27,152 nt of DNA. Source: Stramenopiles sp. TOSAG23-3 (Eukaryota; Sar). This document shows, in pieces, positions 1,045 through 26,063 of this stretch. The notes below the pieces were generated by a model. The model saw nothing but the letters and a program-made list of their open reading frames with translations, had not been told where the DNA came from and made no database searches. The translations under genes were made by a program, and so were the position numbers. Each line of letters starts with the position of its first letter. The first letter of the stretch is position 1. The stretch spans positions 1 through 27,152 of the forward strand of contig LT642264.1 of the NCBI GenBank assembly GCA_900128585.1. Reading direction: 5' to 3'.

Positions 1045-4000
1045 TCACGTTCTGCAAGGGCCTAACTTGGCATCCTCTACCCACTTTGTAACATGACGCG
1101 CGTGGCCCGGAGCGACGGCATGGTGTGGGGAAAAGATACGACCATCTAAACTATTCCCAGACACATCTGGCACGTCCAGGCCGGGTATAATCCCAGGACC
1201 AAAGTTGTACTGGATCAACAACTTGCTCCTCTTTAAGGCATTGCCCGATGGTGCTTTGCAAGAACCGTTCTCTATTTCTACTTTTGATAGGACTCGACCC
1301 CATACCGCGACGTTGTCGACAACTGCATCTACGGGCGCGCCCAATTTCATCGCGCCCACGGTGAACCGCCCACTCCTGTCGGCGAAGGACAACACGCTAT
1401 TTTTGTTGTAATTTATGGACGATTGTGGAAACATCGCCGACACTACTAATTTGCCATTCACAAACAAACTCGCTTTGGTTCCCGTGAACGTCGCCATAAC
1501 ATGGTACCACTTGTTCAAACCAACGTCTATTTTACCAGCCGATCTAATCGACCCTATTGTAGTTTTCTCCTTTGACAACCTGTTGAAGTTGAACACAAAC
1601 CCACTCTCGTCCACTCCTAGCGACCAGCCCTCCGTTTTGCTTCCGCCCATCGCGGCAACGAGGGTCACGAATCCGTCCCCGTCTCGCGCGAATGCACGAA
1701 GCTTTGCAGAGATCGAAACGGTCAGCTCCTTTTTAGCATCTCGCTTCACCACCTGGAAACCCTTGTATCCCGCGCTAATGTAAGGGCCTCCGTGAAGCGA
1801 CAACGCATAGCTCGAATTGCTTTGCGGCCTGAATTTTGTTGCATGAACTAATTTTGCTTGCTTCTTGACAAGAGACTTGCTGAGGTCATAATCTGCCTTC
1901 AATTTATCAGCCTCAAACTGTGCTTCGGTGCGGCTCTTGCGGGCCCTCGGGCATTCGACCTCGTTTAACTTCGCAGATGCTGCCTGTTTCAAAACTAGCA
2001 ATGCAGACACATCCTTAATATTGCTGGTCAAGTGTGCAAAGACCTTCTTGAAGCCCTTCTTCTTTGCAAGGATCTTGTCCTTTTCATACCCCGTGGTATT
2101 TTTCTGTGCTTCTAGGCTCTTCAGTTCCGTCTGGGCTTTGTCCAGTGCTGCCTTCTTCAGTATATATTGGGGGTTATCTAATTGCTGGGGTGCCTTCGCC
2201 AATTCTAATTTGGCATCCTCGACTTGAGTAATGGCAATCTTAGACTTATCGGCAAGATCTACAAACTCCGACAGCTTCGTGGCGTAAGCGTTTCCCAGTT
2301 TATTGTTTTCTTTTTCCTCAGCCAAAAGTTTGGTTTGAGACTCACGCTTCAATCCTTCCGTCTTCGTTACCATGAGGGCGGCTGCCTTCGCAGATTCGCA
2401 AACTTTAGCTTCCTTTGCTAACATAGCTTCAAACTGTTCGATTTGTGCGGTCCACAAGCCTTCTATAGCAGCGGATTTTTCCTTCATCGCATTGAGTTTG
2501 GCTTCTAAGACTTCTACGTTAGCCACAGGCCCTGTCGATATCTTCTCTTCCGGCTCGTCCGCCCCAGCATCGCTTTGGGCGGCCATGATCTTCCCAAGAG
2601 CACTTTTTGCTGGCAGTGCCTTCTCGGATCCCGCTGCGCTCCCGGGCTTGTTCGCCCCATTTGAAGATGCGCCCTTCGAAGCGTTAACGGTGTCAGCAAC
2701 CAGAGAGTTTTCGATGCTGTCCGTAACGTTGCCGAGCTTGTCGCCGGTCATCCCGGAGCTGCTGTTTGTCGCGCCGTTTGACATGGACGAGTTATCACTT
2801 GCACCAGTGGCCGTTCTGCCGGCTACCCCACTCCATCGTTTGATTTTTGCACGCCTCGCGCCCTCTTTGAACCCAAGGACGTTGAATTTTGCTAATGCAG
2901 GAGCCATCAGTTTGTCGGCGTCGTCCAGACTCGCCGATACCCCCGTCTCTCCTCCCAGCCCGGTTGCTCCATGAACCCCCCTCGGACCCATTAATTTATT
3001 GGCTTGCCTGGCGGCTTCTCGCAGCCCCTCTGTGTAACCGGATTTTTCTGCCTCCGACATTTCACTGGGAGTCAAACCAAGAGAGACTTTGTTTGCGCCG
3101 ATCATGCCCTTTTCCCCCTTTTCAGACAATCGTAATTTTTTCACTGCGCTCTTCAGGTTACCTTGAAGGTTATCGTATTCCTTCCTCAACTCTACCGCCT
3201 TTGCATTCAGGACAATGATCTTTTGCGAGTTCTTTCCGTCCGTGTTGTTCGTCTTGAACTTTCCTAACGAAGTTTCCACAGAGTGCAGTGTAATCTCTTT
3301 AGATACCATGTTGCTGCGAGTGGTAAGGGCATTCTTGAGCGCTGCTATCTGAGCCACCTTTGACTCTGTCTGGACAACATGACGAACAGGGCACGATTCC
3401 ACACCTCGCCCTAGCTGGTGGACCCACTGCGACATGTATTCGGGAGGGCAAGTGTCCATCACGGATGGGCCAACAGCTGACCCTTCGGTGCACGTCAACC
3501 GTGCCCCGCACCACCCGCAGCCTGCTTTGGTGCACTGCCCGCAGTCTCCATAGTCGGCGCAAGCCGATCCTTCTACACCGTCGAACTCCCATTTTGAAAT
3601 GTCCCCGTCGAAAAAGTAGGGTCCATCTTTTGTCCCTGCAAAACAGCCAGAGCCAGGAATGTACCCACACCCCGCATCCATGGTGCACTCTTGTGGGCTC
3701 AGGTACAGCCCACAGGCTACCGCAAAAATAGGGGCTTGCTGAGGAATTGGCTCATTTATAACTGAGACTTGGACCTTATCCGCAATTTGCATCTTATTCA
3801 GGATGGACCGTTCCCGGTCCAGCGCCACCCTGGTGGCCACAACTTCCCCGCCATGAGTAATTTTCGTTTGATTTGCACCTTCGATTTTGGATTCAATTTG
3901 AAGCTCTTTTGAATTGCACGCGTCAACGCGTTCGCGCAGCAGAATTAGCTTGTGATTCTGGTTGACAGGGGTAACGCTCAATCCTTGTTTGCTGAGGGCC

Positions 4001-5565
4001 AAAGCATGCTTTTTTTTGATGTCGTCCAACTTTTTTTCTCTGTTGTATGCTAGAAGCGCCGACTCGGATTTCTTCCGCATGTCTGTGATTTCGTCCTTTA
4101 GCTTTTGTTCTTGCACGCGCGATTCCTGCAACTGCAGGTTCCACCGGGCTTCCTCTTTGTCGGTGTTTTCGCCCGTCAAAGCGTGCTCTGCGTCCTTGAC
4201 GCTATGCGTCGCTGCAGTCAAGTTTTGTGCTGTTTGATGGAGCAAAACTTTGAAATTGGCAACTTTGTTTGCGAGCTGGGTGACCACGTCTTCGTCCTCT
4301 GCAGCCTCTTCTGCCAAATCCATGCCGCGCATCTTTGCCCTTTCTTTGTCGTTTCGCAGCTGCGCGGTTTGGTTCTCTATTTTCTCGAGCTCTGCAATTG
4401 ACTCCTCGCATTCCTTTCTGTGGTGGTATAGATCCTCTTTCGAATTCAACATTAGGAGGAGGGTCTTTGACCTGTCCTGGACGGCCTTGTTGTGCGCAGT
4501 TTCTGCCAATTCGACCTTTTCCTCTTGCGCTCGAATTTTCTCTTCTTTGGCGGCCTTCGCTTTTGCCAGCTCCTCCTTCCTTGCTGCAATGCGCTGGGCC
4601 TTTTCGCCGTACATTTTCTTGAGGATGTTCAACCCCGCTGGGAAATTTGACGTGGTGTTGAGCTGGTCGCCCGGGGCCACTGCACTCTTCCCGCCTTTTA
4701 GGGAGACTTCCTTGGCCTGCGCGACTGGCTCTGCCGGAGGAGCTTTCTCGACAACGTTGGTTACGTTCCCAGAGACGACCCCCTTGTGAGCGATCAGCAC
4801 GAACTTCAAAATTTCCAAGTTGTTCGTCAAACCCAACAGTTGCTTCAGCGCCGCCAGTTGGGATTTCTGGGCCAGCGATTTGGTTGCGTAAGCAACGGCT
4901 TTCTCCCGGCACTTCGCTGTCAAACCGGCGTTAAATGCAGCCTCCCCAACTCGCCGAGCACCGAAAGCTTCAGCCTCTAGCGCTGTTCCCAGCTTCACTT
5001 TATCGCTCTTCGACTCCAATTCCGCAACCCGTGCGGTTTGCGACCTCGAGTCTTCATCGCACGTCCGTCTGATTTTCCCCCACGCTTCTTTTCCAAGCTT
5101 TTGGAGGGCAATAACACCCTTCCTTAACTCGAAGAACGGTTTTTTAAATTCTGCTGCATTATCGATGCTTTTCTTGCTCATGCGGTACACCAACTTTTCG
5201 TACAACTTTGCCCCCGCTTCGGTTCCCTGCAACTGCCTCAAAGACCGCTTTACTAAGCTCACGTCTTCTGCAGAAAAACCAGATGCAGCAGGGACTTCCG
5301 CGACCAGAACGTTCTCGTTCCCAGTCTTCATTGCAATTTGCGTGCCGACGTCAATCTTCTCCTGAACAAGTTTCTGCAACAGAGGGTCGTCGTATCCTTT
5401 TGTTGCTTTGAACCTCATATAAGTTACGCGCGGCAATACCCCTGCGTTGGATGTGATCAGGGGTACTCTCCTCCCCAAATCATCCAGCTGAAACGCTTCG
5501 TATGCCCGTACAGACACGCAAAGAACTGCCAAGACGCAAACAAAAAGTCTGTTGCTCCGTGCCAT
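1045..5565 (-). CDS. Large secreted coiled-coil protein with PSI region, collagen-like runs and LamG-like domain
   Basis: A 1506-residue protein. I place the start at 5565 because it begins MARSNR followed by a hydrophobic signal peptide (residues 1-21); the frame stays open to about 5670 upstream, but without a plausible leader. In order: a helical N-terminal region (40-260); a long Lys/Glu/Ala coiled coil (about 320-600); a Cys-rich PSI-like region (619-725) with motifs such as CGQCTKAGCGWCG; a second coiled coil (730-815); Gly-X-Y triplets at 817-825 and six in a row at 860-877; a Ser/Asn/Gly-rich linker with NxS/T sites (915-1010); a third coiled coil (1015-1240); and a LamG/concanavalin-A-like beta domain (about 1250-1440) with motifs NKWYHVMATF and VDNVAVWGRVLS. 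No transmembrane segment follows, so it is probably secreted or cell-wall/matrix associated (inference). No intron is needed. Its exact function is not recognised. Confidence 0.85.
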   Translation of the reverse strand: MARSNRLFVCVLAVLCVSVRAYEAFQLDDLGRRVPLITSNAGVLPRVTYMRFKATKGYDDPLLQKLVQEKIDVGTQIAMKTGNENVLVAEVPAASGFSAEDVSLVKRSLRQLQGTEAGAKLYEKLVYRMSKKSIDNAAEFKKPFFELRKGVIALQKLGKEAWGKIRRTCDEDSRSQTARVAELESKSDKVKLGTALEAEAFGARRVGEAAFNAGLTAKCREKAVAYATKSLAQKSQLAALKQLLGLTNNLEILKFVLIAHKGVVSGNVTNVVEKAPPAEPVAQAKEVSLKGGKSAVAPGDQLNTTSNFPAGLNILKKMYGEKAQRIAARKEELAKAKAAKEEKIRAQEEKVELAETAHNKAVQDRSKTLLLMLNSKEDLYHHRKECEESIAELEKIENQTAQLRNDKERAKMRGMDLAEEAAEDEDVVTQLANKVANFKVLLHQTAQNLTAATHSVKDAEHALTGENTDKEEARWNLQLQESRVQEQKLKDEITDMRKKSESALLAYNREKKLDDIKKKHALALSKQGLSVTPVNQNHKLILLRERVDACNSKELQIESKIEGANQTKITHGGEVVATRVALDRERSILNKMQIADKVQVSVINEPIPQQAPIFAVACGLYLSPQECTMDAGCGYIPGSGCFAGTKDGPYFFDGDISKWEFDGVEGSACADYGDCGQCTKAGCGWCGARLTCTEGSAVGPSVMDTCPPEYMSQWVHQLGRGVESCPVRHVVQTESKVAQIAALKNALTTRSNMVSKEITLHSVETSLGKFKTNNTDGKNSQKIIVLNAKAVELRKEYDNLQGNLKSAVKKLRLSEKGEKGMIGANKVSLGLTPSEMSEAEKSGYTEGLREAARQANKLMGPRGVHGATGLGGETGVSASLDDADKLMAPALAKFNVLGFKEGARRAKIKRWSGVAGRTATGASDNSSMSNGATNSSSGMTGDKLGNVTDSIENSLVADTVNASKGASSNGANKPGSAAGSEKALPAKSALGKIMAAQSDAGADEPEEKISTGPVANVEVLEAKLNAMKEKSAAIEGLWTAQIEQFEAMLAKEAKVCESAKAAALMVTKTEGLKRESQTKLLAEEKENNKLGNAYATKLSEFVDLADKSKIAITQVEDAKLELAKAPQQLDNPQYILKKAALDKAQTELKSLEAQKNTTGYEKDKILAKKKGFKKVFAHLTSNIKDVSALLVLKQAASAKLNEVECPRARKSRTEAQFEADKLKADYDLSKSLVKKQAKLVHATKFRPQSNSSYALSLHGGPYISAGYKGFQVVKRDAKKELTVSISAKLRAFARDGDGFVTLVAAMGGSKTEGWSLGVDESGFVFNFNRLSKEKTTIGSIRSAGKIDVGLNKWYHVMATFTGTKASLFVNGKLVVSAMFPQSSINYNKNSVLSFADRSGRFTVGAMKLGAPVDAVVDNVAVWGRVLSKVEIENGSCKAPSGNALKRSKLLIQYNFGPGIIPGLDVPDVSGNSLDGRIFSPHHAVAPGHARHVTKWVEDAKLGPCRT

Positions 5566-6353
5566 TGTAATGATTCGTCTGACTTTATAACGTACGCACC
5601 CACAGATTCTAAGTTGCACACACACTCCTTTATTTATTCCTCCTCCCATATCGTCTGCGGTGATTCTCACATGTTGGAACTCTGGAGCACTTGCAACATC
5701 CGCGTCGCCGCATCCCGTAACTGCGAAACAGAAGATAGAGTTACAGCCACTATCATTTTTCCTTCCATTTTTTCCTTCCCGGAATTGTTTAGCGAACGAT
5801 AATTACAAACAAGTACAGATAAAAAACAAAAAGGCAAGCCATGGTAGCATTGGAAATCCAATATTGATAGGGACAGTTTTGACTGGATTTGTTTGTACTT
5901 AAAATATGACAGACACTACACCACATCGAATACATTAGCCTATGACCGTAAATCCTGCTTCAATCCCGGACCCCCCTTTTTTTCAATACAGTTTTTCCTT
6001 TCATTTTGGTTCTTCCTCTTCACTTCTTCGTTTCTTTCTTGTGGAATAAAACTCTTCATTTACATATTTAGTTCTTTTGTGTATTATGTTATTTGATAGG
6101 TGTATAATTACACATATATGTAATATATTATATATGCTATATTCATATGTACAATATAGCAATAGTGAGAGTCGACGTTTAAAAATATTAGAATACCAAT
6201 AGAAGTACGTTTTTACGTTTTATCCCTTCTATAATTATCAAGCAATTCTTTTCTGAAATAAATTAGAAATTTTGAAAGTACTAATATTAATAATATATAT
6301 GTAATAACAAAATAACCAAAAATGTTGTTAGCTCTATGAATTTAAATTATTCA

Positions 6354-7078: not shown

Positions 7079-8710
7079 ATGGCAGACGAAAAAGCAGCGC
7101 TTAAGCTATTGAATAAGCTACGCCGTTTGCCCGGCAACAAACAATGCGCTTCGTGCAATGAAACCTGTAAGAACCCGATGGGGTACTCGAATATATGCGT
7201 CAAATTCAAAATATTTGTGTGCAGTATCTGCAAAAGTGCTCACCAAAGCTATTCTCACAGGGTGAAGCACAGCAGTATGAGCACGTTCTCGCTGAGTGAG
7301 GTGGAAAGTTTTCGCTACGAGAACGGCGGCGGCAATGATGCTGCGAGGGAACTGTATTTTGGTGGCCTCCCCGACGGCTTCGATGGGTGGCCTGCGCAAG
7401 GAGACCTAAAGGAAGCAAAGAAATTCATCGACCAGGCCTACAACGAACTGCGTTTTAAGGGAAGAGCTTCAAAATCCCACAAAAAGAAAAAGCGGAAGGA
7501 GAAAAAGAAAAAGCGGTCGAAACAGGAGAAGGCTGGTGCCTCGATGGACGAAGGGGTGTTCGGCTCCGAAATGAGTGATGACCCCTTCGGAGGTTTCGGA
7601 GGGAGCAGCAGCAATGCGGTGCCAGCAGGCCCCAGTGGCGACGAGGGCGATTTGTTCGGGGGTTTCGGAGGGGGCAGCAGCAGTGGGATGCCAGCGGGCC
7701 CCAGCGGCGACGAGGGTGATTCTATATTTGGTTTTGATGGGGAATCTCACGCCGCCCTGGAAACCTCGGGCACTACGGATGAGGCCACTTTTTTTGGTTT
7801 AAACGGCCCTGCTTCGGACAACACGCCAAGTGTCGCAATGCAGAATAGTGCCACCGGCTCCCAAGGAGACGAGCTGGGCAACTTCGGGGTTTTTGAAAAT
7901 AATAGCGGTCAAAATGGGACTTCCTCGTCTGCGCCATTTCCATCTGGCGCATCCCTGGACTTTGGTTTTGGGGACAACACTGTGCAAAACCGTGAAAGTC
8001 ATAATGTGGAGTTTTCGGGGTTTCCCAATTCATCGGAAAAGAAGGATAGACGAAAAAAGAAAAGTAAGAGAGAGAAGAAAGACAAGAAGGAGAAGAAGAA
8101 ACATTCCTCTACACGTGAAACCCAGGATGATCTGCTCAATTTTGCTGACGATGCCTTTGGTAATTTCAACGTATCGCCGCAAATGAATAACAATGGTGTC
8201 GGCAGCGGAACGGACATAAATCAGGGTTCTGCAGCCCCGCAACAACCTTCTGGGAACCTCCTAGGATCATTGTCTTCGTTGTACACGAATGAAAGTGCCC
8301 CCTCGGCGCCGTCCACGAGCATGGATCCATTTTCGACGATTGCACGCTCTACGTCAGCGCCCAGCCAATTGCAAGGAGCAGGAAACAGCAACTTCCCCTT
8401 TTCAATGGGGGGTGCGACGAACAACACGCCGACCAATTCGTTTTATATGGCTCCCTCAAACAGCATGTCGACAAACAGCATGTCGACAAACAACATGATG
8501 TCGACCAATTCGTTTTCTCAGCGACCGATGATGTCTGGTGGACTCGGTGCTTCCTCTGACTTTTTCTCGGCCCCGTCGTCCTCCAGCGCCATGTCGATGA
8601 TGGGCACGGGCAGCAAGCCAATGAACATCATGAATGCTGGCAGCAGCGCCAAAAAAGGCACGACGAGTAAGGACGTTCGAGATCCATTTGCTGGGCTTGT
8701 CAGCTTTTGA
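7079..8710 (+). CDS. AGFG/AGD14-type ArfGAP-domain protein with an altered arginine-finger position
   Basis: A 543-residue protein. Residues 1-128 form an ArfGAP zinc-finger domain: C23-x2-C26 and C48-x2-C51, then HRVKHSSMSTF, which matches the HRVKS-x-SM-x-x-F block shared by animal AGFG1 (Hrb) and plant AGD14/15. The run GGGNDAARELYFGGL is also as in that group. The spacing between the Cys pairs is 21, against the usual 16, and includes extra cysteines. Residue 56, where catalytic ArfGAPs have Arg (as in CSGIHR), is Gln (KSAHQ), so GAP activity is doubtful. The rest is low-complexity: two Lys-rich blocks (about 134-151 and 320-341), a near-duplicated Gly/Phe/Ser unit (171-217), Met/Ser/Asn/Thr repeats (460-478), and DPF tripeptides at 168, 416 and 535 that resemble AP-2 adaptor-binding motifs. 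A role as an endocytic/vesicle adaptor is inferred from the family. Confidence 0.85.
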   Translation: MADEKAALKLLNKLRRLPGNKQCASCNETCKNPMGYSNICVKFKIFVCSICKSAHQSYSHRVKHSSMSTFSLSEVESFRYENGGGNDAARELYFGGLPDGFDGWPAQGDLKEAKKFIDQAYNELRFKGRASKSHKKKKRKEKKKKRSKQEKAGASMDEGVFGSEMSDDPFGGFGGSSSNAVPAGPSGDEGDLFGGFGGGSSSGMPAGPSGDEGDSIFGFDGESHAALETSGTTDEATFFGLNGPASDNTPSVAMQNSATGSQGDELGNFGVFENNSGQNGTSSSAPFPSGASLDFGFGDNTVQNRESHNVEFSGFPNSSEKKDRRKKKSKREKKDKKEKKKHSSTRETQDDLLNFADDAFGNFNVSPQMNNNGVGSGTDINQGSAAPQQPSGNLLGSLSSLYTNESAPSAPSTSMDPFSTIARSTSAPSQLQGAGNSNFPFSMGGATNNTPTNSFYMAPSNSMSTNSMSTNNMMSTNSFSQRPMMSGGLGASSDFFSAPSSSSAMSMMGTGSKPMNIMNAGSSAKKGTTSKDVRDPFAGLVSF

Positions 8711-8954: not shown

Positions 8955-9932
8955 TTACTTCTTGAAATCGATGCGCCTATTTCTGGATTCCAGTACCCAG
9001 TCCTCAGGGTCCATGGTCTCCAAAAAACATTTTGTTTGCTTGCCTAGAATCACAGAAGTCTGCTGTCGACTCCTATCCCCAATAATCTTTAACCCCAAAT
9101 AAATCTCATTCATTATATCTACATTTTCGTCGATACCTTGTTGCTGCACTTTCTCAAGGAACCCTACCAAATGATCCTCAAAATGCTTCAGCAAAGTGAT
9201 GGTAAACTTGAAAAAAAAATCCCAACCATGCATGAAGAAGGAGTCCCACACCAGACATAGCAACTTTCCTTCCAGAACGTAAGAATATAAGGTCAAAACC
9301 CACTCGGTCGCATAAGTCACAGGCTCAATGCTGTATTTTTCAAAGTAAGAGTGCAGTATTGGGCAGTGCTTTTCACAAAAGACGGAAACGAGCTTCATCT
9401 TTTGCAGCGCGCCGGTCATCCCAACTGCAAAATTATGAAGCAAAAGATATTTTTTGCATACCATCATCCTTGTGAAAATTTCAAAAGCGACGTTTTCATC
9501 CACGTGCTTCAGCAAGTGCGCGACGATCATATTCATTCCTTGGACATAACCGCATCTTTCGCTCTCCGGTACTAACGCTCGTTCTAGGCAAACCCAGGCA
9601 ATCAGGACTCGCCGAAGCCCGCGCTGGCCGTTGCCCTCTTTGCTTCTGAACAAAATATGCCGAGGGCAGGTTCGACCAATGTCGCGATCAATAGCATCCG
9701 CACAAGCCGGGGGTGCAGACTGGTTTCTATAATACCAGTACAATAACGTTAAGCGACCATGCTTTCTCCGGCCATTAATTGAATTGAACCTTTTCGCACC
9801 AGACTTTCTCTTTCGAGCTTCTGTAAGCCATAAACGACCGTGAGCAGTCATTTCTGTGCCGCTCCCCCGCCGACACGGCCCTTGGCTGGAAGAAGCAAAC
9901 CGTATCTTCCTTCTCGGCGCACAATCTCCCAT
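8955..9932 (-). CDS. TBC-domain Rab GTPase-activating protein
   Basis: A 325-residue protein, started at the ATG at 9932. The TBC domain spans about 78-285. Motif B reads IDRDIGRTCP with the arginine finger at R87. Motif C reads GYVQGMNMI with the catalytic glutamine at Q131. ATEWVLTLYSYVL followed by LVWDSFFMHGWDFFF (about 209-241) is the typical C-terminal half. Both catalytic residues are present, so it should stimulate GTP hydrolysis on a Rab-type GTPase; the target is unknown. The N-terminal TBC Trp motif (R-x3-W) is not recognisable in residues 1-77, and there are a few extra residues (ERALVPESER) between the two catalytic motifs. An upstream exon or divergence could explain the missing motif. 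It converges on the ArfGAP-like gene at 7079-8710. Confidence 0.82.
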   Translation of the reverse strand: MGDCAPRRKIRFASSSQGPCRRGSGTEMTAHGRLWLTEARKRKSGAKRFNSINGRRKHGRLTLLYWYYRNQSAPPACADAIDRDIGRTCPRHILFRSKEGNGQRGLRRVLIAWVCLERALVPESERCGYVQGMNMIVAHLLKHVDENVAFEIFTRMMVCKKYLLLHNFAVGMTGALQKMKLVSVFCEKHCPILHSYFEKYSIEPVTYATEWVLTLYSYVLEGKLLCLVWDSFFMHGWDFFFKFTITLLKHFEDHLVGFLEKVQQQGIDENVDIMNEIYLGLKIIGDRSRQQTSVILGKQTKCFLETMDPEDWVLESRNRRIDFKK

Positions 9933-10152
9933 CGCCAAACGCTACAAATTAGTATTCTACCACAGTTTGCATGGCACTCCAATAATCTAAATTTCGTATA
10001 AAACGTCACCTATTTACGATTCAGATCAATTTTCTATCCAATACGTCTACATATTTTCTCCATAAGCATTGAATTAAAAATCCTATAATAATAAAAAATA
10101 AAAAAATATTATTTTTTTTTTATTATTACTTACTACTACGAGCGTATTAGTA

Positions 10153-13185: not shown

Positions 13186-14355
13186 ATGGCAAACTCCTAC
13201 CTTCTCGCTTTTACAGTCGTCGTACTCATCACTTTTAACAGTGGCAGGGCTACGCCTTCGTTTCCAAGACGAAACTTAATTACGGGCAATGCGCCCTATG
13301 TTAAAACCAAAGACCATCCTAATGTTGGGGAACTTAAAATAACTGTTTTAAAACATGGTATGCCATTAACCGCAAACGCAAAATGTACAGGAACGTTGAT
13401 TTCTCCCAGCCTTGTGCTGACCGCAGCACACTGTCTCATCCTTCCAGACGGTTTTACGATAAAGAAAGTTGCGGTTCAGTTTCCCACAATGTCGAAGCCT
13501 GTTAACGTGGAAAAGGTTGAAACACATTACACTTACAAAAAACACGAGAGATTTCCTAGTTATGGAGATATTGCAATTTTACGATTAGAAGAATGTGTAA
13601 CCACAGTTAAACCTGCAAAATTGTTCACTGACCGCGACGTTACTTGCCGACAAGGTAAAGCGGTCGGGTATGGTAGAACAGACACCCTTGGTTTTTTCCA
13701 TGATGATGACGCTGATGTCGATCCCACTACGGATGCAGCAAAGACAACTACATTAAATATTCATAGCCCTGAGGCATGTGAAGAAATAAATTATCACATG
13801 TTTAAAATTGCCTTGAAAGAAAACAGAAAAGGCCTTGAAAAGCATCTTGTCAAATATTATGGTGGAGTGGAGAAAAATTTGCAGACTGCATCGGAAGAGG
13901 AATTGAAACATCTGATTTTTCAACTCGTTGATACGCATCAACTAGACAGCTCCAGTTTTTGCGCCACGCCGACAACCAAAACCTTTCAAACAATGCATAA
14001 AGGCGATAGTGGAGGGCCTTTATTTATCAATGGGAAAATAGCTGGTGTTGTAAATGCTGTTGGTGGTCTAAGATCGATTGCAGTTGGGTTTTTGACCTCT
14101 TACTCATCAGTCCCTCATCACATCCGTTGGATTCAGGCAATGAGTCACCGTCTAAATAAAGGCTACAAGTGCAAAAATAAATCAAAAAGAAGACTACGAG
14201 CTAAAACAACAAGGAGAAAGCTACGAGCTGATCCGTTCTTAAAGGGTACTAACTCGGAGCTTTGGCAAAAAAATGTCCTTAAGCTGTCAAGAAAAAAAGT
14301 GTCAAAATTCATCAAATTTCTGAATAATTATGATCAATGCAGAAAAAAGAATTGA
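13186..14355 (+). CDS. Secreted trypsin-like (S1 family) serine protease
   Basis: A 389-residue protein. Residues 1-20 are a signal peptide, followed by a short propeptide with a dibasic site (PRR, 27-29) before NLITGN, the likely counterpart of the IVGG mature N-terminus. The catalytic triad is present: H82 in LTAAHC, D128 in GDIAIL, S275 in GDSGGP. C67-C83 matches the conserved C42-C58 disulfide. C198 and C259 match the C168-C182 pair but are about 60 residues apart instead of about 13, so a roughly 45-residue helical, Lys-rich insertion sits there. The position equivalent to trypsin Asp189 appears to be Thr269, which argues against trypsin specificity, and the C191 and C201 equivalents are absent. 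After the protease domain (ending about 324) comes a strongly basic tail of about 65 residues. It is probably an active secreted protease; its target is unknown. Codons are AT-rich compared with the large genes. Confidence 0.88.
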   Translation: MANSYLLAFTVVVLITFNSGRATPSFPRRNLITGNAPYVKTKDHPNVGELKITVLKHGMPLTANAKCTGTLISPSLVLTAAHCLILPDGFTIKKVAVQFPTMSKPVNVEKVETHYTYKKHERFPSYGDIAILRLEECVTTVKPAKLFTDRDVTCRQGKAVGYGRTDTLGFFHDDDADVDPTTDAAKTTTLNIHSPEACEEINYHMFKIALKENRKGLEKHLVKYYGGVEKNLQTASEEELKHLIFQLVDTHQLDSSSFCATPTTKTFQTMHKGDSGGPLFINGKIAGVVNAVGGLRSIAVGFLTSYSSVPHHIRWIQAMSHRLNKGYKCKNKSKRRLRAKTTRRKLRADPFLKGTNSELWQKNVLKLSRKKVSKFIKFLNNYDQCRKKN

Positions 14356-15730: not shown

Positions 15731-18700
15731 TTATTGCTTCCCTTCTTTGATCAGACGCATTGCTTCCTCTGGCGACGTGTTGATCTTGTCAAACCAAAAT
15801 TCCTGAACGTACCATTTTGCCCGATCAAAGTTTCTGCTTTCTTTGACGCATATCTTCTTAATCAGCCTGTCAACATTCGCCTTCGATACTTTCGGGAACA
15901 ATTCAAAAAACGGAGCCAATGCGAGTTGCTTCTTTATACCTTTTCCATGAAAGTGTTCGAGAAATGGGCGTAAGTGTGTGTGTTTGATTTCCTTTTCTTT
16001 CAGCTCGGCAAGCTTGTCGCGCTTCAATTTCTCTTTCGCCAATTTTTTTGCTTCCACTAAACGGGCCCGTTCAGCGGCTTTTTTCAATTTCTCTTCTGTT
16101 TTCCGCTTTTCGGCTTCGGCTCTTTCTTGCTTCAAACGTTCTGCTTTTTCTGCCCGCTCAAGTTTCTTTCGTTCCAGCTCCTCCATTCGCTCTCTTTTTC
16201 TCTTCAACAGTTTCTCGGCCTTCTCTTTTTTCTTCAACGCGTGCTCCGCACTCATTCCAATTTTCTGAAAACCCAGCAAATTTGATGACCCTCTCTGTTG
16301 GGCAGAAAGTTGATTCACAGGGTCTATTGGCCCCGCAACAAGCGCCACAATTTTATACGCAAACAACTGGCTGTCCGACGCGCCGGTGCTGCTTTCATAC
16401 TGGGTTCCAATGACGAGCTCGGAGCCGAATTCGGTAAAATTAGCGAATTTCCGCTTTTTGCTTGTTAACTTTCCGTTCTCAGAATCACCCTGCGCGTCTT
16501 CCGTGGCCTGCTGCTCGTCGTCGGTGGAAGAATCGTCCCCTCGCTTCGCGATCCCGTTCTCGTAGATCACTTCGTCGTCGCCCAGGAGCCAGCCGTCTGC
16601 GTAGTCCATTTCGTTGTCGACTTCATCGGCACCGTCCTCTTCCTCCCCGTCACTCATTTCTAAATCTTCCGCCGGCTGCCCGTCTTCCCACTCCTCGTCG
16701 CTGTCCATCTCATACTGCAACTCCTCCTTGTCGTGGGCAAACGGGTTTCTTTTGGAGATGACCTTTGACGACCTCATCCATGGCCCCCAATACGCGGGTC
16801 GTTGGTTTTCGCTAAATTGGAACAGCCTCCACCGTCGACTGTTCAGTTGGGGGTAGAGATCACCTAACTGTTGACACTTTTGGAGAAACACCCCCGCGTA
16901 GTCGGAGCTGGCTTGCCCCCCCTTTGGCGCTGCTGCCACCGAGAGGGCATGGTCAACATCGCACAGTAAAGATGACTGAAAGGCACTTTGAATGACATCA
17001 TCCAAAACTTCTTTCAGGACTATTCTATCGTTGGCGCTGAGTCCCAACGACACGTTGTCAGTATCCTGCTGAGATTTTACCACGCCCAGCGCTTGAAATT
17101 TTTTCTTCAACTGAGCCTTTTTCTTCTCCAATTCAGCCTTTTTCTCTTCTTCTAATCTAAGCATTTTCTCTTCGGCAAGGCGCGCCTTCTCCTCCCGAGC
17201 TTTTTCCGCGTCCTCTCTTCTCTGCTGTGCCATCAACTCTCTCTCAGCGCGCCTTGCCGCCTTCTCTGTTTCCCGGGCAAGCTTCTTCTCCTTCCGCAGT
17301 CGTTCCGCCTCTTGCCTCTTCGCTGCTTTTGCCTCCATCTCCGCCCGCATCGACGCGTCTTCCAAGCGCATCTTCTCCAGTCGCTCTTCGCGTTTGAAAT
17401 CTTCCGATGCTCTTGCGACCTCGGCGTTAACGACAAGCTCTTCCGCCTTTTTCGCTTTGTCTATCGTCACATACGGGTCGGCCAAAAGAGTAATCAGCTT
17501 TTGGAGCTGCGTCATGACGCGCGAGAGGACACTTAGCTTCTTGCTCAGATCTCGGAACAAGTACTTCTCGCTTTTCATCACTTTCTCTTTGTAAAACAAA
17601 TGCTCCTGCTTCTTGAGAATCCACACCCAGTGCGCGCTTCTCGATTCATCTTCGGCGTGTTCACTTTTCTCGAGCTCTGCGGGTTTGCATCCAATATGTA
17701 CACGGCGAGAGATCCTTTGAACAGTATCACACACGACGCTGCGGGCTCCCTTCGTTTTTTTCATTTTCAAGGCCTTCATAATGCCCTGGACGAGATACGA
17801 CATAGTTGCCCTTGAGCCATGCACGTATTTGGCAAGGGCAGCCTGAAACTCGTCTTTTTGGAGCAACGCTTTAAACGCCGTTCCATCGTCAGAGCTCGGC
17901 TCCAGGGTCGCACCGAACTTCTTGAGAACACGTCGCTTCCGCCACTGTGCCGCGTCGCGTTGGTGTTCCTCCGCGGCGTTTTGTAGGCTTACGAGTTTCT
18001 TCTTGTTCTCCACCAGCTTCTTTTGGATCGTGAGGGCATCTGCTTTGGAGACGGCAGGGGGCTGCTTCCCGGACTGCTTCCCTCCTTTTTTGCAAGGGCT
18101 GTCGTTTGCACTCCCAGCAGCCTCGAATTTTCTGTGCTCTTGAAAGACGTACGTCGAAGCATCCAGGGCCCCTGGCAACCCTTCGAGCAACGCGGTAGTC
18201 TCGGGTTCGCTTATGGCGTAAGCTTTCAGCCCGGACAGCGAACGTTTCGTGGCCAATCCCATCGATAGCATCTTGGAAGCAACGCGGTTGAGCACCAGTT
18301 TCCAAACACTGCCAGGGGACTGGCCACGAAAAATCTCATCGCAGTCCCCCGCTTTGACGGCAAATATTGGCTTTTGGCTTCCTGCCAGCCCAGGCTCCGT
18401 GGTTTGCGTGTACAGCACTTCTTTTGAGGGTTCCTGGAACGATGTAAACGTAATAGTGCTCTTGTATCCCACGGGGAGCAGCTGCCGAGACGTCGCGTAC
18501 AACGGTTGAAGCGACCCAAGGCTGTAAATAACGGTGTCGTTTACCTTGAGCGGGAATGTTGTTTTCTGCAACCGGGCTTTGGCGGCTTCATGGAGGACAG
18601 CCGGGGCGGGGGGTGCGTTCGCTTCCGCTTCGGCCGCAACCCTCTCGCGTTCTGCCTGCTCGTGCGCTACCATTTCATTCACCTTCTTCGTCTCGTCGTC

Positions 18701-19831
18701 GAGAATGGCTTCAATGGCCTTTTGCAACTCCCTTCCCTTCGGGTTTGATTTGCAGAATATCCTCGCACCGGGCACGTAGGTATCCCACTTTTTCGAAAAT
18801 CCGTCGAAGTGGACCAGGTAGGCAGGCTCCGATTCTCCGCCCTTGAAAAATTTTCGATTCCCTATTTTCAGTACACACGCCTCGTAAAGAAGGCCTTGCG
18901 GGGCAATTACACTATCCAGAGGCACCCCGGTCATGTCCCAGCACAGCACTTTATCTCCGATTTCGTGTAGGGTCGGTTCCGATTCAAAAGTGTCTTTCAT
19001 GGATCTCAAAACGACCATATTTGCAAGGTCATCCACGACGTCATTCACCGCAATCAAATCTGCTTCCGCTTGGCGCTTGGCCTCCTCCTTCAACAACCTT
19101 TCGGCCTCCTTAAGAACTTTCTCTTCCTCTCTCCGCCGTTCCAGCTCTCGAGATTTGCGTTCCTTATCCTGGTTTTCCCAAACTTTCAAAGAGCCCGCGA
19201 CCGCATCTCGTTCCTCATCGCTGTCCGCGTCTTCAAGCCCACTCTCTTCTGAAGAGGACGACCAGTCTTCCTCGTCGTCCTCTGAGCTACTTTCATCAGA
19301 TTCTTTACTATCATTGCACTGCTTTGCAGGCCCCTGGGCGCCACCAGCTTTCTCTACCGCATCCTTGTTGCCCTTCGCTGGGCCTAGCAATCCAGCCTCG
19401 ATTAATTTCTCTGGCTTTCCGGACGAGCTGCCCTCAATAGAAGCAGATGCCGCGCTGTCGCCTGACGTCTTCTGCCGCTTTGGGCTGGGCTTGAAAACTT
19501 TGTTCGGGAGTTGCCTCTTCTCGACGGGAGAGGCTTTCTTTTCCGCGGGCTTGCTCGGGGCCGGCTTTGCAACGGCGGTCGTTTTCTTCTTTTTCATGCC
19601 GAAAAAATTTGCCATAAAAGACGCGCTCTTGGACACTTTCTTCTTCTGCCCTTTGGAGGGGGTGTTGGCGGAACCCGCAGGCGACTTGACTATCTTTTTC
19701 TGGGTTTTCGGCGTGACGCCGGAGCTTTCCAAACTTCGGTGACGAACCGCAGCAACGGCCGACTTAGCAGCCTTCTTCCCATTTTGCGGGAAAGGCGACT
19801 GGAATTTTGGATTTCCACCCTGACCAAACAT
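15731..19831 (-). CDS. Chromatin assembly factor 1 large subunit (p150-like) with added chromo-barrel and FYR domains
   Basis: A 1366-residue nuclear protein. In order: a basic N-terminus with a PIP-like box SFMANFF (71-77; it lacks the canonical Gln), a possible PCNA contact; an acidic Ser/Glu/Asp tract (172-210); a Tudor-knot/chromo-barrel-like domain (290-360) with GDKVLC, YEACVLKI and YLVHFDGFSKKWDTYVP, as in the MRG15/MSL3 type; FYRN-like (430-480; YSLGSLQPLY, LPVGYKST) and FYRC-like (485-563; SGLKAYAIS, LLEGLPGA, YVF) regions, as in MLL/TBRG1 proteins; a KER-type charged coiled coil (812-915); the CAF-1 acidic domain (1000-1090; LFQFSENQRPAYWGPW, RNPF, YEMDSDEEWED); a second charged helix (1198-1282); and a C-terminal winged-helix-like domain (1284-1346). 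CAF-1 deposits H3-H4 on newly replicated DNA. The CAF-1 parts are firm, the FYR and chromo-barrel assignments a little less so. One uninterrupted frame joins all of them. Confidence 0.85.
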   Translation of the reverse strand: MFGQGGNPKFQSPFPQNGKKAAKSAVAAVRHRSLESSGVTPKTQKKIVKSPAGSANTPSKGQKKKVSKSASFMANFFGMKKKKTTAVAKPAPSKPAEKKASPVEKRQLPNKVFKPSPKRQKTSGDSAASASIEGSSSGKPEKLIEAGLLGPAKGNKDAVEKAGGAQGPAKQCNDSKESDESSSEDDEEDWSSSSEESGLEDADSDEERDAVAGSLKVWENQDKERKSRELERRREEEKVLKEAERLLKEEAKRQAEADLIAVNDVVDDLANMVVLRSMKDTFESEPTLHEIGDKVLCWDMTGVPLDSVIAPQGLLYEACVLKIGNRKFFKGGESEPAYLVHFDGFSKKWDTYVPGARIFCKSNPKGRELQKAIEAILDDETKKVNEMVAHEQAERERVAAEAEANAPPAPAVLHEAAKARLQKTTFPLKVNDTVIYSLGSLQPLYATSRQLLPVGYKSTITFTSFQEPSKEVLYTQTTEPGLAGSQKPIFAVKAGDCDEIFRGQSPGSVWKLVLNRVASKMLSMGLATKRSLSGLKAYAISEPETTALLEGLPGALDASTYVFQEHRKFEAAGSANDSPCKKGGKQSGKQPPAVSKADALTIQKKLVENKKKLVSLQNAAEEHQRDAAQWRKRRVLKKFGATLEPSSDDGTAFKALLQKDEFQAALAKYVHGSRATMSYLVQGIMKALKMKKTKGARSVVCDTVQRISRRVHIGCKPAELEKSEHAEDESRSAHWVWILKKQEHLFYKEKVMKSEKYLFRDLSKKLSVLSRVMTQLQKLITLLADPYVTIDKAKKAEELVVNAEVARASEDFKREERLEKMRLEDASMRAEMEAKAAKRQEAERLRKEKKLARETEKAARRAERELMAQQRREDAEKAREEKARLAEEKMLRLEEEKKAELEKKKAQLKKKFQALGVVKSQQDTDNVSLGLSANDRIVLKEVLDDVIQSAFQSSLLCDVDHALSVAAAPKGGQASSDYAGVFLQKCQQLGDLYPQLNSRRWRLFQFSENQRPAYWGPWMRSSKVISKRNPFAHDKEELQYEMDSDEEWEDGQPAEDLEMSDGEEEDGADEVDNEMDYADGWLLGDDEVIYENGIAKRGDDSSTDDEQQATEDAQGDSENGKLTSKKRKFANFTEFGSELVIGTQYESSTGASDSQLFAYKIVALVAGPIDPVNQLSAQQRGSSNLLGFQKIGMSAEHALKKKEKAEKLLKRKRERMEELERKKLERAEKAERLKQERAEAEKRKTEEKLKKAAERARLVEAKKLAKEKLKRDKLAELKEKEIKHTHLRPFLEHFHGKGIKKQLALAPFFELFPKVSKANVDRLIKKICVKESRNFDRAKWYVQEFWFDKINTSPEEAMRLIKEGKQ

Positions 19832-20888: not shown

Positions 20889-23800
20889 TTATTCCTTTTT
20901 CTTTGTTGAACCAAATACGGATTCGACGATGTGGCTTTCCTTCAAGCTGGCACTGGCCCCCATGGCGTCTGCTAGCTGTGCCCCAAAACCATTCGTAGCC
21001 GAGAGTGCTTTTATCCCAGCTGCAGCCTTTTCCAAATTGTTTTCTTCCAATTCCATCTGGTGACTTTTGTCTGCCATTAATTCCTGCGTAAAACTACCCG
21101 ACCGTTTCTTAAAGGCTTCGGGCCCCAGAGATTCGCTGACAAGCGCCAGGTCATACAACCGTTCGAAATAATTCTTCAGGGTTTTGGTGACCGGCAGCAG
21201 CGGCAACATGTCTCGGGCCTTGATCGACAAATCCTTCCCGATTGCGATGACTCGCTTGCCTTCTTCTAAACTTTCTTCAAGGGTTGCAATGCGCTGTAAA
21301 ATTTCACGAGACAAGGACGCGCCTTGGGTGTAATACGGCTTTACGTTGTGGTGGCCGTTCGATCGGTACTCCAAAATGGATGTCAACATTTCTTCTGCCT
21401 TTTGAACCATCTCCTCTCCGTTGCACACCAATATCTGACCCTTGGCAAGCTGCATTTCCCCCTCGTCAACATTGTCATACATCCGTATAAGGCCACGAGA
21501 AAGAGCTTCGAAGTACCACACGCCGAGGGCGGTGCAGTTGGCCTGGAAGCAGGTCGGGACAAAATGCTTGTTCCCGGTTGCTCGGACTTTTCGAGTGAAC
21601 TTCTTTGCCCGTTCGAAGGACTCGAGCAGATCGCAAGAACGCATCCGGAGCAACGTGGCGAACTGAGCTTCCTCCATGGGATTGTTGCTGGCATCGGTTT
21701 GGGCCCCGGTTTTAACCCAGCAGTGGGAAAACACACACGAATCGTTGGGGTACCGAACAAGTGCGCCCAGGGAAGAGATCCCACCAATTTGCTGCTGCCC
21801 GTACACCCCTATAATTTCGCCAGGATCAATAGAACGACTGAAGTCAACGGAAAGGCTGTGAACACGACCCGTAGCGTAGCTGCCATACCACGGCGACTTT
21901 CGCCCCAAGTTCGTCACGAACCTGATGCGACCAACAATCTTCTCTGCGTCGACGTCTATCTTGACAATGCCCTCCTTTTTCTCGTGGTCGAGCAGAAACG
22001 ACTTCTTCGTGCCCTTGCTGTTGCCGTTCACGGGCAGCTCAACTTCAGGCCCCTTCCCATCTCTGACACAAAAGCCGACCCCAACGACCCAGTCTTCCAC
22101 GTAGACGTCCACCCGCGTTGTTGCGCAAGTGCTTCTCAATTTTTCCATGTCTGAAAAGCTGTTGCCTTGCGGTCGGGCGTTCTTCAAAACGTCTGTGCTC
22201 AGCGGACCCTTTTCCAGAAGGTACGTGACACGGCCTCTGTTTTGAAACTCTAAAAACAGCATTCTCTTCTCCAGCTTTATCCGCTGCCGAATTTCAGCCT
22301 CCCACCTCGCTTCGAACTTTTTGTAAGAATCCTGTTTCCTTGAGTTTAGCTTCAGTTTATACGTGATGTACTGGTGCTTCTTTCGGGTCCATCGACTTGA
22401 CAGCCCGCGATAAAATGCATAGAAACGATTTCGCCACGAGTCGATATCGACCGCCAGGCGCTTCAGAGCAAACCTTTCTTTCGATTTACGCGTGGAGATG
22501 GTGTACTTTCGTTTTAAAAGGCTTTGCAAAGATACAAAGCACGTCTGCAAGGTTTTGAGTCTTGACGTTTCTCGCTTAAGTTTGACCAAGCTTCGATACA
22601 CGGATTTCATTTGAACATATTCAAGCCATCTATAAAACACGGACCTTGGGTGCGTCATCAACATGGTGGGTGGAAGGGCAAACTTGCCATCGATGCAGCT
22701 GCTAAATTTGGAAAGGAGTCGACGCCTTCGCGTGACCTTCGGGCCTAGTCCAGGACTAGAAATTTGGAATCGTATTTGGACGTTCACCATCCATTTGTTA
22801 AAGAACGACCACCTCAGGCGCATGTTGTAGTACATGGGCATGCCGCGATCCAAATAACGCAGTCGTGAGCATATTCGCAGCCAATTTTTCAACCGATTCC
22901 GTTTGTACAACGCCAAAGAGTTCTTTTGGGTGACGAAGATTCTCATCCTTCGCAAGCAAGAAATGGCAAATTCACGGGTGTACTTTCGCTCGCATTTCAC
23001 CCAGCAGCGGTAAATGGTGTTGACAAGGATTTTCCCCCGCCTATTTCTAAGGTCTGTCATGTGACCGAACACGTCGCTCCGGTGCTGGAGGGATATCGCT
23101 TTTTTTTCTCGTTTGAGGTTTTCTTTTGCCATCAGACGCTCTCCGCTCGCTTCGTCGTCCAGCAAAAAGTTTATTGACCTAATCACGCGGCCCTCCCGTG
23201 CCCTGACTTTCTCTGTTTCAAAGCGCGCGGACACATGTTCGCCTTCTTTAAGAAGTTGCCGTCTAACGATCACGTCCTCGTCCCACTCTTCTTGCGCCTT
23301 TTTTATTCTCATTTCACGTCTCTTCTCCGCTTCAAAAAGTTTCCGCTGGCGCATTTCCCGTTCCCTCGCCTGTTCTGCCAGACGCTGCTCATCGTTCACT
23401 TCCATCGAACTGAACATTTCTTCGGCAATGTTGGTTGTCGTATCGCCGATGATGTCCTCGTGGCCAAGTGGAACATCTGGGCTTGGGGAGCGCTTCGTCG
23501 GATCGTTGGAATGCTCTGCCCCGTCCCACCCCTTGGGGTTCCGGATGTCTTTGCCGGAGAACAAGTCTGATCCAGGCGTGGCAGTAGCAGCAGTGACTGC
23601 TGCGACTTTGGACTTTGGACTTTTTTGCTTCGTCAACATTTTGTGCCTCGCTGCGACTCGTTTTGTTACGTTCCTGTGAAACACGTAAAAATACCGCTTG
23701 CGCAACATGTAAATGTAATGCATATAAGCATAGCGCTCTTTCTTACTCTCAAAGACGTACAGCCGCATGGCTTCGAAAAATACCCGGCCCACTCTCAGCG

Positions 23801-26063
23801 CGCAACAGCGGTTGATGGCCCTTTCCCGTACTTCGTACTGTTCAAACGAAGCCTTCATCACATCGCAAAAATCGGCGAGGCGGCCTTTCACTTTTGAGCT
23901 GATGCTGCCCCATTCCAGCACAGCGGATATACGGGGAAGTTCAGGCAACAAATCGGTCCACAGGGCAGCTTCCTGAAGTTTTTTCTCGTTCAAGCAAAAC
24001 GGGGACGCCCACCAACACCGTGTCCGGCTTCTGCACAACAGCTGGAGGTGTGCTCGGTAACGCCAGACGGCAAAACAAAAAATATTTCGGTTGATGTAAT
24101 TTGCTTTTGCAAATGCACGCCCCTTGTCCCTCCAATTCGTTAAAACGATGGCTTTGTGCGATGCCCATTCATGCCACAAGCCTACCATTCTGCGAGCCCG
24201 AAACACATCCATCTGTTTGTTCTTCCTTTCGTTTCGCAGTTTTCTCTCCTTCTTTTCTTTGTACCATCTCTTGTACGCCTTGAAGTGGACCAGCATCCAA
24301 TAGGAATTGAATATTCTGGCTGCATTCAAAGCTTTCTGGCGACTGTAAATGACCTCTTCTGTAGCCAACCTCCAAGTTCGAAATGGCCAGAAGCAAATTC
24401 GAAAGGTTGTTCTGTGTCTCTTCATTCGACCTGTGTACCGACGCCACTTGTACAGCTGTCTCCTGCAGCTGTAACGGACGTCAACAATTCTCCGCACGTA
24501 TTTTTTAAGCGCAACGAACAGGTTGCGCCTGGCTCTCTCTTCTCGTTGGACATAGTGCGACAGTGCACGCCTTAACTTTTCTCTTTTTCTGGCAAGAAAA
24601 CCTCTTGTCGAAGCCTGGACCATCACTGCTGCACAGTTGCTGGTGTAGTCAATGGATTTCTTCATCGCTTTGTCAAGGTTGTTCAATCTGTTCTCAGCAT
24701 CATCTTCCCCCGGGGGCCCTCCCTCGCCCGCCGCCGAGGCATCGTTTTGTTCGTACTTGATGAAACTTTTTGCAATTCGCGCGTGGTGCCGACTTGGGCT
24801 CTCCATCATTTCGTTTCCATTCCTATCGGCCGGTGTGTCTGCTGCATCAACTCCTTCGACGTCGCTGCCAGGATCGTCACCGCCGGACTCCTTGTCCGCA
24901 ATGTCTGCACGCAGCAATTTCTCGTCTGGCGCGCTTCCACTTGGTGGTCCCGGCTCGGTTGGATCAGTGAGTACTTCCTGGGAAAATTCTTTTGTTGCTT
25001 CTTCTCCACGAGTCTCCCCTACTACCACTATGGACCGACCTTCGTATTTACCAACTTTTAATGTATCGTCCAATGCATACGGCAACGCTTCGCCCTCCTC
25101 TTCGCCCTCCGATTTTTGTTCATCGGGATCGTTTTCTCGGCCCTGCTCCGATCTGGCCGTCTCGGGCATTACGTCTGGCTCGATTACTAAACCACTCTCG
25201 GACAAATGGCCAAAGTACTCCACAAATTCGTCGTACCTTATGGTGGCATCCTCGCGCTGGAACTTCCCTGGAAGGGCAAGCAGCAGCTCAATGACGGTTT
25301 TCCCTGATATATTACGGCAGTGTTTTTGCAACACCGCAAGAAAATCTTTCCAGACGTACACTCCGTCGACGTTTCTACGCAAAAAGTGCTCTTTGATTCG
25401 TTGCCAATGCCTGTGGACTTCCTTTCTGAATTCCTCGAATCCAATTTCTCGAAGCTGCGATAAATCTTCACGAAGTGACGAATCTAATTGAACGCTTTTT
25501 GGGAAAATCCCTTGACCCCCATGGTCCTTGGCAATGAGCGAAGCATGAGCTGCTCCGGACCTCAACAAAGCAGAAAATTGTTTTTTTGGAAACTTTGATT
25601 TGTTTTTGAAGGGCGCGGCCGTGGATGGGTTGGTGCCCACCGTGCGATCAGCCTGCCCCCCTGCCCCCCCCCCTTCGGCGCCGGGATCGCCCTCTACGCC
25701 GTCGCATACCGAACCGTCTATCGTTTCCCTTCTTGTGTTCTTTTCTGTGTTCAAAGGAGTCAGAACACCGTGGCGCACTCCAGGGTTTAACCCTCTCGCG
25801 CCCTTGAAGCTATTCTTCCGCCCGTGCTCATAGAAAGACGCGGATACCGGCCGGGTGGGGGAGTCGTCCCGTTTCCGTATGTCGTCTCTGCCGTAAAATT
25901 TTGAGAACAGCTGAGGGCTCCCAGTTGCACGATCGTTTGACAATTTGTACCATGGTTTCCCCCGGTACTCCGGGGTGTTTCCAGCGGCGCCTTTCTTCTC
26001 CCGAAGGCCTCGCTGCACCCGCTCAAAGCTGTCCACAACGCTAAAATCTCTGTAAAAAGCCAT
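20889..26063 (-). CDS. Sfi1/IQ-type cytoskeletal protein with EF-hand-like pair and jacalin-like domain
   Basis: A 1724-residue protein in one open frame from ATG 26063. In order: a disordered N-terminus (1-190); a degenerate EF-hand-like pair (about 205-285); an acidic disordered part (300-465); an IQ calmodulin-binding motif (477-497, VMVQASTRGFLARKREKL); Trp/aromatic-rich helical repeats of Sfi1 type (about 535-685, W540, W559, W564, W600, W630, W667; and about 1010-1230, W1021, W1061, W1091, W1146, W1210); a charged coiled coil (885-990); a jacalin-like beta-prism domain (about 1316-1438; VGRIRFVTNLGR, EIIGVYGQQ, GGISSLGALVRY); and a helical C-terminus. Sfi1 repeats bind centrins at basal bodies and spindle poles, so a centriolar, basal-body or cortical scaffold is the likely role (inference). 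EF-hand calcium ligands are poorly conserved. The jacalin-like assignment rests on pattern recognition. Confidence 0.75.
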   Translation of the reverse strand: MAFYRDFSVVDSFERVQRGLREKKGAAGNTPEYRGKPWYKLSNDRATGSPQLFSKFYGRDDIRKRDDSPTRPVSASFYEHGRKNSFKGARGLNPGVRHGVLTPLNTEKNTRRETIDGSVCDGVEGDPGAEGGGAGGQADRTVGTNPSTAAPFKNKSKFPKKQFSALLRSGAAHASLIAKDHGGQGIFPKSVQLDSSLREDLSQLREIGFEEFRKEVHRHWQRIKEHFLRRNVDGVYVWKDFLAVLQKHCRNISGKTVIELLLALPGKFQREDATIRYDEFVEYFGHLSESGLVIEPDVMPETARSEQGRENDPDEQKSEGEEEGEALPYALDDTLKVGKYEGRSIVVVGETRGEEATKEFSQEVLTDPTEPGPPSGSAPDEKLLRADIADKESGGDDPGSDVEGVDAADTPADRNGNEMMESPSRHHARIAKSFIKYEQNDASAAGEGGPPGEDDAENRLNNLDKAMKKSIDYTSNCAAVMVQASTRGFLARKREKLRRALSHYVQREERARRNLFVALKKYVRRIVDVRYSCRRQLYKWRRYTGRMKRHRTTFRICFWPFRTWRLATEEVIYSRQKALNAARIFNSYWMLVHFKAYKRWYKEKKERKLRNERKNKQMDVFRARRMVGLWHEWASHKAIVLTNWRDKGRAFAKANYINRNIFCFAVWRYRAHLQLLCRSRTRCWWASPFCLNEKKLQEAALWTDLLPELPRISAVLEWGSISSKVKGRLADFCDVMKASFEQYEVRERAINRCCALRVGRVFFEAMRLYVFESKKERYAYMHYIYMLRKRYFYVFHRNVTKRVAARHKMLTKQKSPKSKVAAVTAATATPGSDLFSGKDIRNPKGWDGAEHSNDPTKRSPSPDVPLGHEDIIGDTTTNIAEEMFSSMEVNDEQRLAEQAREREMRQRKLFEAEKRREMRIKKAQEEWDEDVIVRRQLLKEGEHVSARFETEKVRAREGRVIRSINFLLDDEASGERLMAKENLKREKKAISLQHRSDVFGHMTDLRNRRGKILVNTIYRCWVKCERKYTREFAISCLRRMRIFVTQKNSLALYKRNRLKNWLRICSRLRYLDRGMPMYYNMRLRWSFFNKWMVNVQIRFQISSPGLGPKVTRRRRLLSKFSSCIDGKFALPPTMLMTHPRSVFYRWLEYVQMKSVYRSLVKLKRETSRLKTLQTCFVSLQSLLKRKYTISTRKSKERFALKRLAVDIDSWRNRFYAFYRGLSSRWTRKKHQYITYKLKLNSRKQDSYKKFEARWEAEIRQRIKLEKRMLFLEFQNRGRVTYLLEKGPLSTDVLKNARPQGNSFSDMEKLRSTCATTRVDVYVEDWVVGVGFCVRDGKGPEVELPVNGNSKGTKKSFLLDHEKKEGIVKIDVDAEKIVGRIRFVTNLGRKSPWYGSYATGRVHSLSVDFSRSIDPGEIIGVYGQQQIGGISSLGALVRYPNDSCVFSHCWVKTGAQTDASNNPMEEAQFATLLRMRSCDLLESFERAKKFTRKVRATGNKHFVPTCFQANCTALGVWYFEALSRGLIRMYDNVDEGEMQLAKGQILVCNGEEMVQKAEEMLTSILEYRSNGHHNVKPYYTQGASLSREILQRIATLEESLEEGKRVIAIGKDLSIKARDMLPLLPVTKTLKNYFERLYDLALVSESLGPEAFKKRSGSFTQELMADKSHQMELEENNLEKAAAGIKALSATNGFGAQLADAMGASASLKESHIVESVFGSTKKKE

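Follow-up and report, generated by a model that had tools for sequence, protein, structure and literature searches.

A single open frame at the locus

We have analyzed a long protein-coding frame, P0001, on contig LT642264.1 of Stramenopiles sp. TOSAG23-3, taking the first 27,152 nucleotides of that contig as the window. The frame probably encodes the large subunit of chromatin assembly factor 1 (CAF-1), and it contains in addition a chromo-barrel and a pair of FYRN and FYRC domains. A first-pass annotation of the same DNA had reported an uninterrupted frame of 1366 codons at 15731-19831. Position and length were exact, and the strand, which had been left unstated, is minus.

P0001 runs from 19831 to 15731, beginning with ATG and ending with TAA, is free of stops inside and can be read without any intron. 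Frame 1 of the plus strand across the same interval has many stops, and the GC content at third codon positions of P0001 is 0.50-0.68 over its entire length. In a whole-genome search the open frame extends to 1386 codons, which places an upstream stop about 20 codons ahead of the ATG. The initial Met-Phe also forms the first residues of P0003, one of three related predicted proteins (P0002-P0004) found in other records; in P0004 and P0002 these residues are preceded by predicted extra ones.

Five Pfam-A families score beyond their curated cut-offs within this one frame (the cut-offs in bits are 28 for MSL3_chromo, 25 for CAF1A_dimeriz, 24 for FYRN and 21 for FYRC). The frame and its features are as follows, from the N terminus.

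15731-19831, minus strand: single frame of 1366 codons (P0001), a probable CAF-1 large subunit that also carries a chromo-barrel and FYRN-FYRC, from Pfam profiles
19601-19624, minus strand: PIP-like (PCNA-binding-like) motif ASFMANFF, residues 70-77, from pattern and alignment
18710-18979, minus strand: chromo-barrel of MSL3/MRG15 type, residues 285-374, from Pfam, AlphaFold2 and Foldseek
18398-18559, minus strand: FYRN domain, residues 425-478 (PF05964, E 5e-9, 36.1 bits)
18137-18373, minus strand: FYRC domain, residues 487-565 (PF05965, E 5.5e-10, 39.7 bits), found at the same place in the genome search
17594-17842, minus strand: stretch similar to the conserved region near the N terminus of plant FAS1, residues 664-746, suggestive, from hhalign
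17102-17341, minus strand: K/E/R-rich stretch (KER), residues 831-910, from composition, and lying within a CHAF1A alignment
16619-16828, minus strand: CAF1A dimerization domain and start of the acidic ED region, residues 1002-1071 (PF12253, E 1.3e-19)
15950-16249, minus strand: second long charged helix, from the ED region to the winged helix, residues 1195-1294, from AlphaFold2
15764-15988, minus strand: C-terminal winged-helix domain, residues 1282-1356, from a fold match

The CAF-1 part of the protein

The CAF1A dimerization domain scores 70.6 bits, where the cut-off is 25, and the best match of P0001 among solved structures is CHAF1A (7y5k, E 1e-18). The first-pass annotation had recognized CAF-1 by a KER coiled coil, an acidic block YEMDSDEEWED and a winged-helix C terminus, and all three were located. 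The acidic block occupies residues 1040-1050 and is followed by an acidic run, although the Pfam family CAF1A_acidic did not match P0001 even at E 1. The KER was assigned from its composition (58-62% K+E+R in 60-residue windows) and its position before the ED region. For the C terminus Foldseek returned 83 matches, led by two Cac1 winged helices, 5ejo (E 0.13) and 5jbm (E 0.37); these E-values are weak, and the winged helix is supported only at the level of predicted fold. A comparison of residues 585-830 with residues 1270-1366 gave no support for a duplicated winged helix within the protein (hhalign probability 0.2).

Near the N terminus, the strict PIP pattern is present as QNFMASFF at the aligned place in P0003 and P0004, while the Q is absent from P0001 (ASFMANFF) and P0002 (AAFMANFF). 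Residues F72, M73, A74, F76 and F77 are unchanged in all four proteins. The PIP of fission yeast Pcf1 is QLKLNNFF, and the conserved regions of the CAF-1 large subunit are given as KER, PIP, ED, two partner-binding regions and WHD, according to excerpts of the same source (PMC10942606). The region at residues 664-746, before the KER, bears a suggestive likeness to plant FAS1, having matched with hhalign probability 62 and E 7.3e-5 in one of eight pairwise comparisons.

P0001 has in common with CHAF1A/p150, Cac1, Pcf1 and FAS1 the CAF1A dimerization domain, the ED region, a preceding K/E/R-rich stretch, the winged helix as a fold and an N-terminal PIP-like motif. It differs from them in the added chromo-barrel, FYRN-FYRC pair and second long charged helix. 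The last of these is modeled with mean confidence (pLDDT, over ten residues) of 59-94. At a common threshold there are two K/E/R-rich stretches in P0001 (831-910 and 1191-1290), two in P0002 and one each in P0003 and P0004. The helix at 15950-16249 resembles a natural counterpart of an engineered double-KER yeast CAF-1, and is of some interest because a doubled KER was suggested to be able to replace the winged helix in yeast (PMC10335832, in excerpt).

Is this the CAF-1 large subunit that the organism uses? CAF1A_dimeriz was found at one place in the 12.9 Mb assembly, with no second, plain large subunit, and P0001 is therefore probably the working subunit of its genome. The H4-binding domain of RBBP4 was likewise found once. 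The propeller of CAF1B/HIR1 matched 58 places, and none of the six frames examined could be identified as CAF1B: three pass the 80.5-bit cut-off of the propeller but fit other WD families better, and the other three are LIS1-like, Sec31-like or unspecific. From these sequence comparisons we infer a CAF-1 function for P0001, as a conserved variant of a known machine.

The chromo-barrel and its predicted aromatic cage

A Tudor-knot or chromo-barrel-like domain had been proposed at residues 290-360, and an FYRN/FYRC-like pair at 430-563. Both hold, with ranges right to about 15 residues. In the first region two Pfam families score above their cut-offs, the MSL3_chromo-like PF22732 (residues 291-374, E 3.2e-9) and Tudor-knot PF11717 (residues 311-358, E 9.6e-5). 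When P0001 was searched against profiles of solved structures, the chromo-barrels of MRG15 and MSL3 and the FYR domain of TBRG1 were matched at E 0.002-0.004, far below CHAF1A. A profile built from the four proteins improved the match to MRG-type chromo-barrels to E 2.2e-5 to 2.2e-4.

Structure prediction had been proposed as a check for residues 285-570. In the chromo-barrel, ten-residue means of pLDDT are 68-84, except for 57 at residues 281-290 and 48 at 301-310, and the model of residues 281-760 returned chromo-barrels of MSL3, MRG15 and MRG701 as the top 14 Foldseek matches, those of MSL3 and MRG15 being the best. The FYR part of the prediction was obtained only at low pLDDT (see below).

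The residues that form the aromatic cage of MRG15, which we take to be numbered Y26, Y46, W49 and W53 in agreement with the MRG15 alignment, have the following predicted equivalents in P0001.

18884-18886, minus strand: Y316 (MRG15 Y26), Y in all four proteins
18806-18808, minus strand: F342 (MRG15 Y46), F or Y in all four
18797-18799, minus strand: F345 (MRG15 W49), F or Y in all four
18785-18787, minus strand: W349 (MRG15 W53), W in all four

P0001 is thus similar to the MSL3, MRG15 and Eaf3 proteins in the sequence and fold of its chromo-barrel and in the positions of the cage, and we predict that the domain reads methyl-lysine. It is distinguished from those proteins in that the Pfam scan of P0001 matched no MRG domain. 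The PDB holds, by entry title, complexes of MRG2 with either H3K36me3 or H3K4me3, of Eaf3 with a nucleosome bearing H3K36me3, and of MSL3 with H4K20me1; because the marks in these structures differ, no single mark can be assigned to the barrel of P0001. A separate chromo-barrel frame on another contig of the genome (C5) scores above both cut-offs, and is probably MRG15/Eaf3-like.

The FYR pair

FYRN and FYRC lie in tandem, beyond their cut-offs, in each of the four proteins. Searched with the four-protein profile, this stretch matches the FYR domain of TBRG1 (2wzo, E 8.7e-8) and KMT2D (E 5.4e-7). The corresponding part of the AlphaFold2 model is poor, with pLDDT mostly below 50, and 2wzo stands at Foldseek rank 45 (probability 0.77) for the low-confidence model of residues 281-760, so that the assignment is made from sequence profiles. 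P0001 resembles TBRG1 and the KMT2/MLL proteins in sequence and in having FYRC directly after FYRN. It differs in that the Pfam scan matched no SET, JmjC or PHD domain in it, and that its FYR pair is joined to a histone chaperone subunit.

FYR pairs occur elsewhere in the same genome. A frame of 3228 amino acids (contig C421, L021:1353-9998 and L022:2-1036) has two FYRN-FYRC pairs, a bromodomain, PHD, WHIM1 and WSD, together with a PWWP match below its cut-off, and looks from its domains like an ISWI-partner-like (BAZ/ACF1-type) protein that bears FYR domains. A second frame, of 1716 amino acids (C409, L023:817-5964), combines FYRN-FYRC with a Med26-type domain, a bromodomain and WSD, and on a third contig (C123) there is an FYR pair without other domains. 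FYR thus seems to recur as an addition to chromatin proteins in this genome, and the fusion in P0001 suggests that it is a docking module common to several chromatin-assembly proteins of the lineage.

Conservation of the domain order

The architecture was sought in other proteins, and it was found in P0002, P0003 and P0004. All four proteins have the order chromo-barrel, FYRN, FYRC, CAF1A_dimeriz, and because they have this one order in common the combination is beyond chance. The protein searches scored 7984 candidates sharing most words with the query and having 0.55-1.75 times its length. With residues 285-575 as query P0002 was the sole other protein, so that this search, which missed P0003 and P0004, was of limited sensitivity. 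With residues 985-1366 there were 116 CAF-1 matches including the query. Chromo-barrel, FYRN and FYRC are listed beside CAF1A_dimeriz in four of these (P0001-P0004), and none of the three is listed in the other 112. Five of the 112 were scanned directly, and had neither chromo-barrel nor FYR at E 0.01. This fits the view of the first-pass annotation that neither kind of domain is present in the CAF-1 large subunits described so far.

P0003 and P0004 are 79-97% identical by region, and as such close kin they reduce the four proteins to about three lineages. Their MSL3_chromo scores are 26.0 for P0003, which falls below the cut-off, and 28.3 for P0004. When this pair is not compared with itself, the chromo-barrel is 42-55% identical between proteins, FYRN 38-51% and FYRC 37-53%. 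The values are 20-33% for the stretches at residues 83-284, 25-38% for the KER, 36-43% for the FAS1-like region, 56-71% for the ED region and 50-77% for the winged helix. The added module therefore stands above residues 83-284 and about level with the FAS1-like region, indicating that it is retained rather than drifting. The N-rich relative P0002 also has an HMG box at residues 1268-1338, between its ED region and a C-terminal charged helix.

A possible role in histone deposition

In other species CAF-1 deposits new histones in the wake of the replication fork, where chromatin state is restored. To our knowledge, the reading of old marks and the deposition of new histones are carried out by separate proteins in well-studied species. 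Full-text searches of the open-licence literature found no paper on FYR or a chromo-barrel joined to CAF-1; one article mentions FYRN and chromatin assembly factor without relating them, in the part consulted (PMC5575660). Paramecium PtCAF-1 was considered as a counterpart and dropped, being an RBBP4-type protein of 391 residues according to an excerpt of PMC4231744.

We favor, with moderate confidence, the interpretation that P0001 acts as a CAF-1 large subunit that has its own arm for docking to chromatin, one that reads marks and docks a partner. From homology, its partners would be proteins of RBBP4 and CAF1B type; the PIP-like motif, the KER helix and the winged helix would bring it to forks, and its acidic region would hold the new H3-H4. 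The aromatic cage would hold a methylated lysine on parental nucleosomes behind the fork, of the H3K36, H3K4 or H4K20 type to judge from MRG15/MRG2 and MSL3, while the FYR domain would serve there as the docking site for a chromatin modifier or remodeler. Such docking is supported by the co-purification of TBRG1 with INO80 (PMC10954555) and with Myst2/Kat7 (PMC5557939), as described in the parts of these papers that were seen. New histones could then be placed next to marked old ones with a modifier close by. A role in reading chromatin state during histone deposition may reasonably be inferred, and the protein is predicted to tie the loading of new histones to marks on existing chromatin.

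A stronger form of this proposal we favor only tentatively: in this lineage CAF-1 itself would recognize, through its cage-bearing chromo-barrel, methylation on parental nucleosomes as they are recycled, FYR would call in the modifier, and the machine that deposits new histones would thereby also copy chromatin state. That a natural fusion is conserved across about three lineages points to a coupling of reading and deposition that is direct and useful, and offers a single protein in which the idea could be tested.

Could the added module serve for docking without any reading of marks? Chromo-barrel and FYR would then together recruit a MYST-type acetylase, an INO80-type remodeler or a COMPASS-type methylase. 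The partners of TBRG1 just cited, and the FYR pairs on remodeler-partner-like proteins of the same genome, are what this explanation would lead one to expect. We nevertheless consider it unlikely, as plain docking has no need of the four cage positions that are aromatic in every one of the proteins. It is more doubtful still that the module mainly contacts DNA or RNA, helping CAF-1 to grip new DNA, with methyl reading incidental. The MSL3 chromo-barrel was solved with DNA as well as H4K20me1 (title of entry 3oa6), and both the second long charged helix of P0001 and the extra HMG box of P0002 would suit such a role, but it leaves the FYR pair unexplained and the conserved feature actually seen is the aromatic cage. 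That two adjoining genes, or a mis-assembly, have been taken for one is very unlikely, hardly to be entertained, because the domain order recurs in three more predicted proteins of other records; P0001 is known from genomic sequence and its relatives are predictions, but the frame is stop-free, its third-codon GC keeps to the range given above throughout, and conserved stretches span the would-be joint.

The host genome and the remainder of the window

A tree of RBBP4 was made with 23 rows, picked by hand from 120 listed of 345 matches. In this tree the RBBP4 of the genome groups, with support of 100/100, with three records that include the EukProt protein g10492.t1. It is 48-52% identical alike to the proteins of Phytophthora, Nannochloropsis, choanoflagellates and the named animals in the tree, 44% to that of Fraxinus and 36%, over a shorter stretch, to that of the diatom Proboscia. 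With identities so nearly equal across groups, we claim no supergroup; the host is probably a single-celled eukaryote. A search of the genome for chlorophyll-binding genes gave no match.

P0001 matched nothing in a library of defense systems. A scan of viral contigs gave 240 pattern matches, none of them in a contig that encodes a relative; this was a narrow scan, both of its peptide patterns being drawn from the PIP-like stretch.

Several other long frames lie in the window. Those at 7079-8710 (plus strand), 8955-9938 (minus) and 13186-14355 (plus) have ArfGAP, Rab-GAP (TBC) and trypsin-like protease matches. A frame of 1724 amino acids at 20889-26063 (minus) has a sub-threshold IQ motif match only. 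At 1045-5670 (minus), a frame of 1541 amino acids matches Laminin_G_3 at E 8.3e-15 and PSI below threshold, and probably encodes a large surface or secreted protein.

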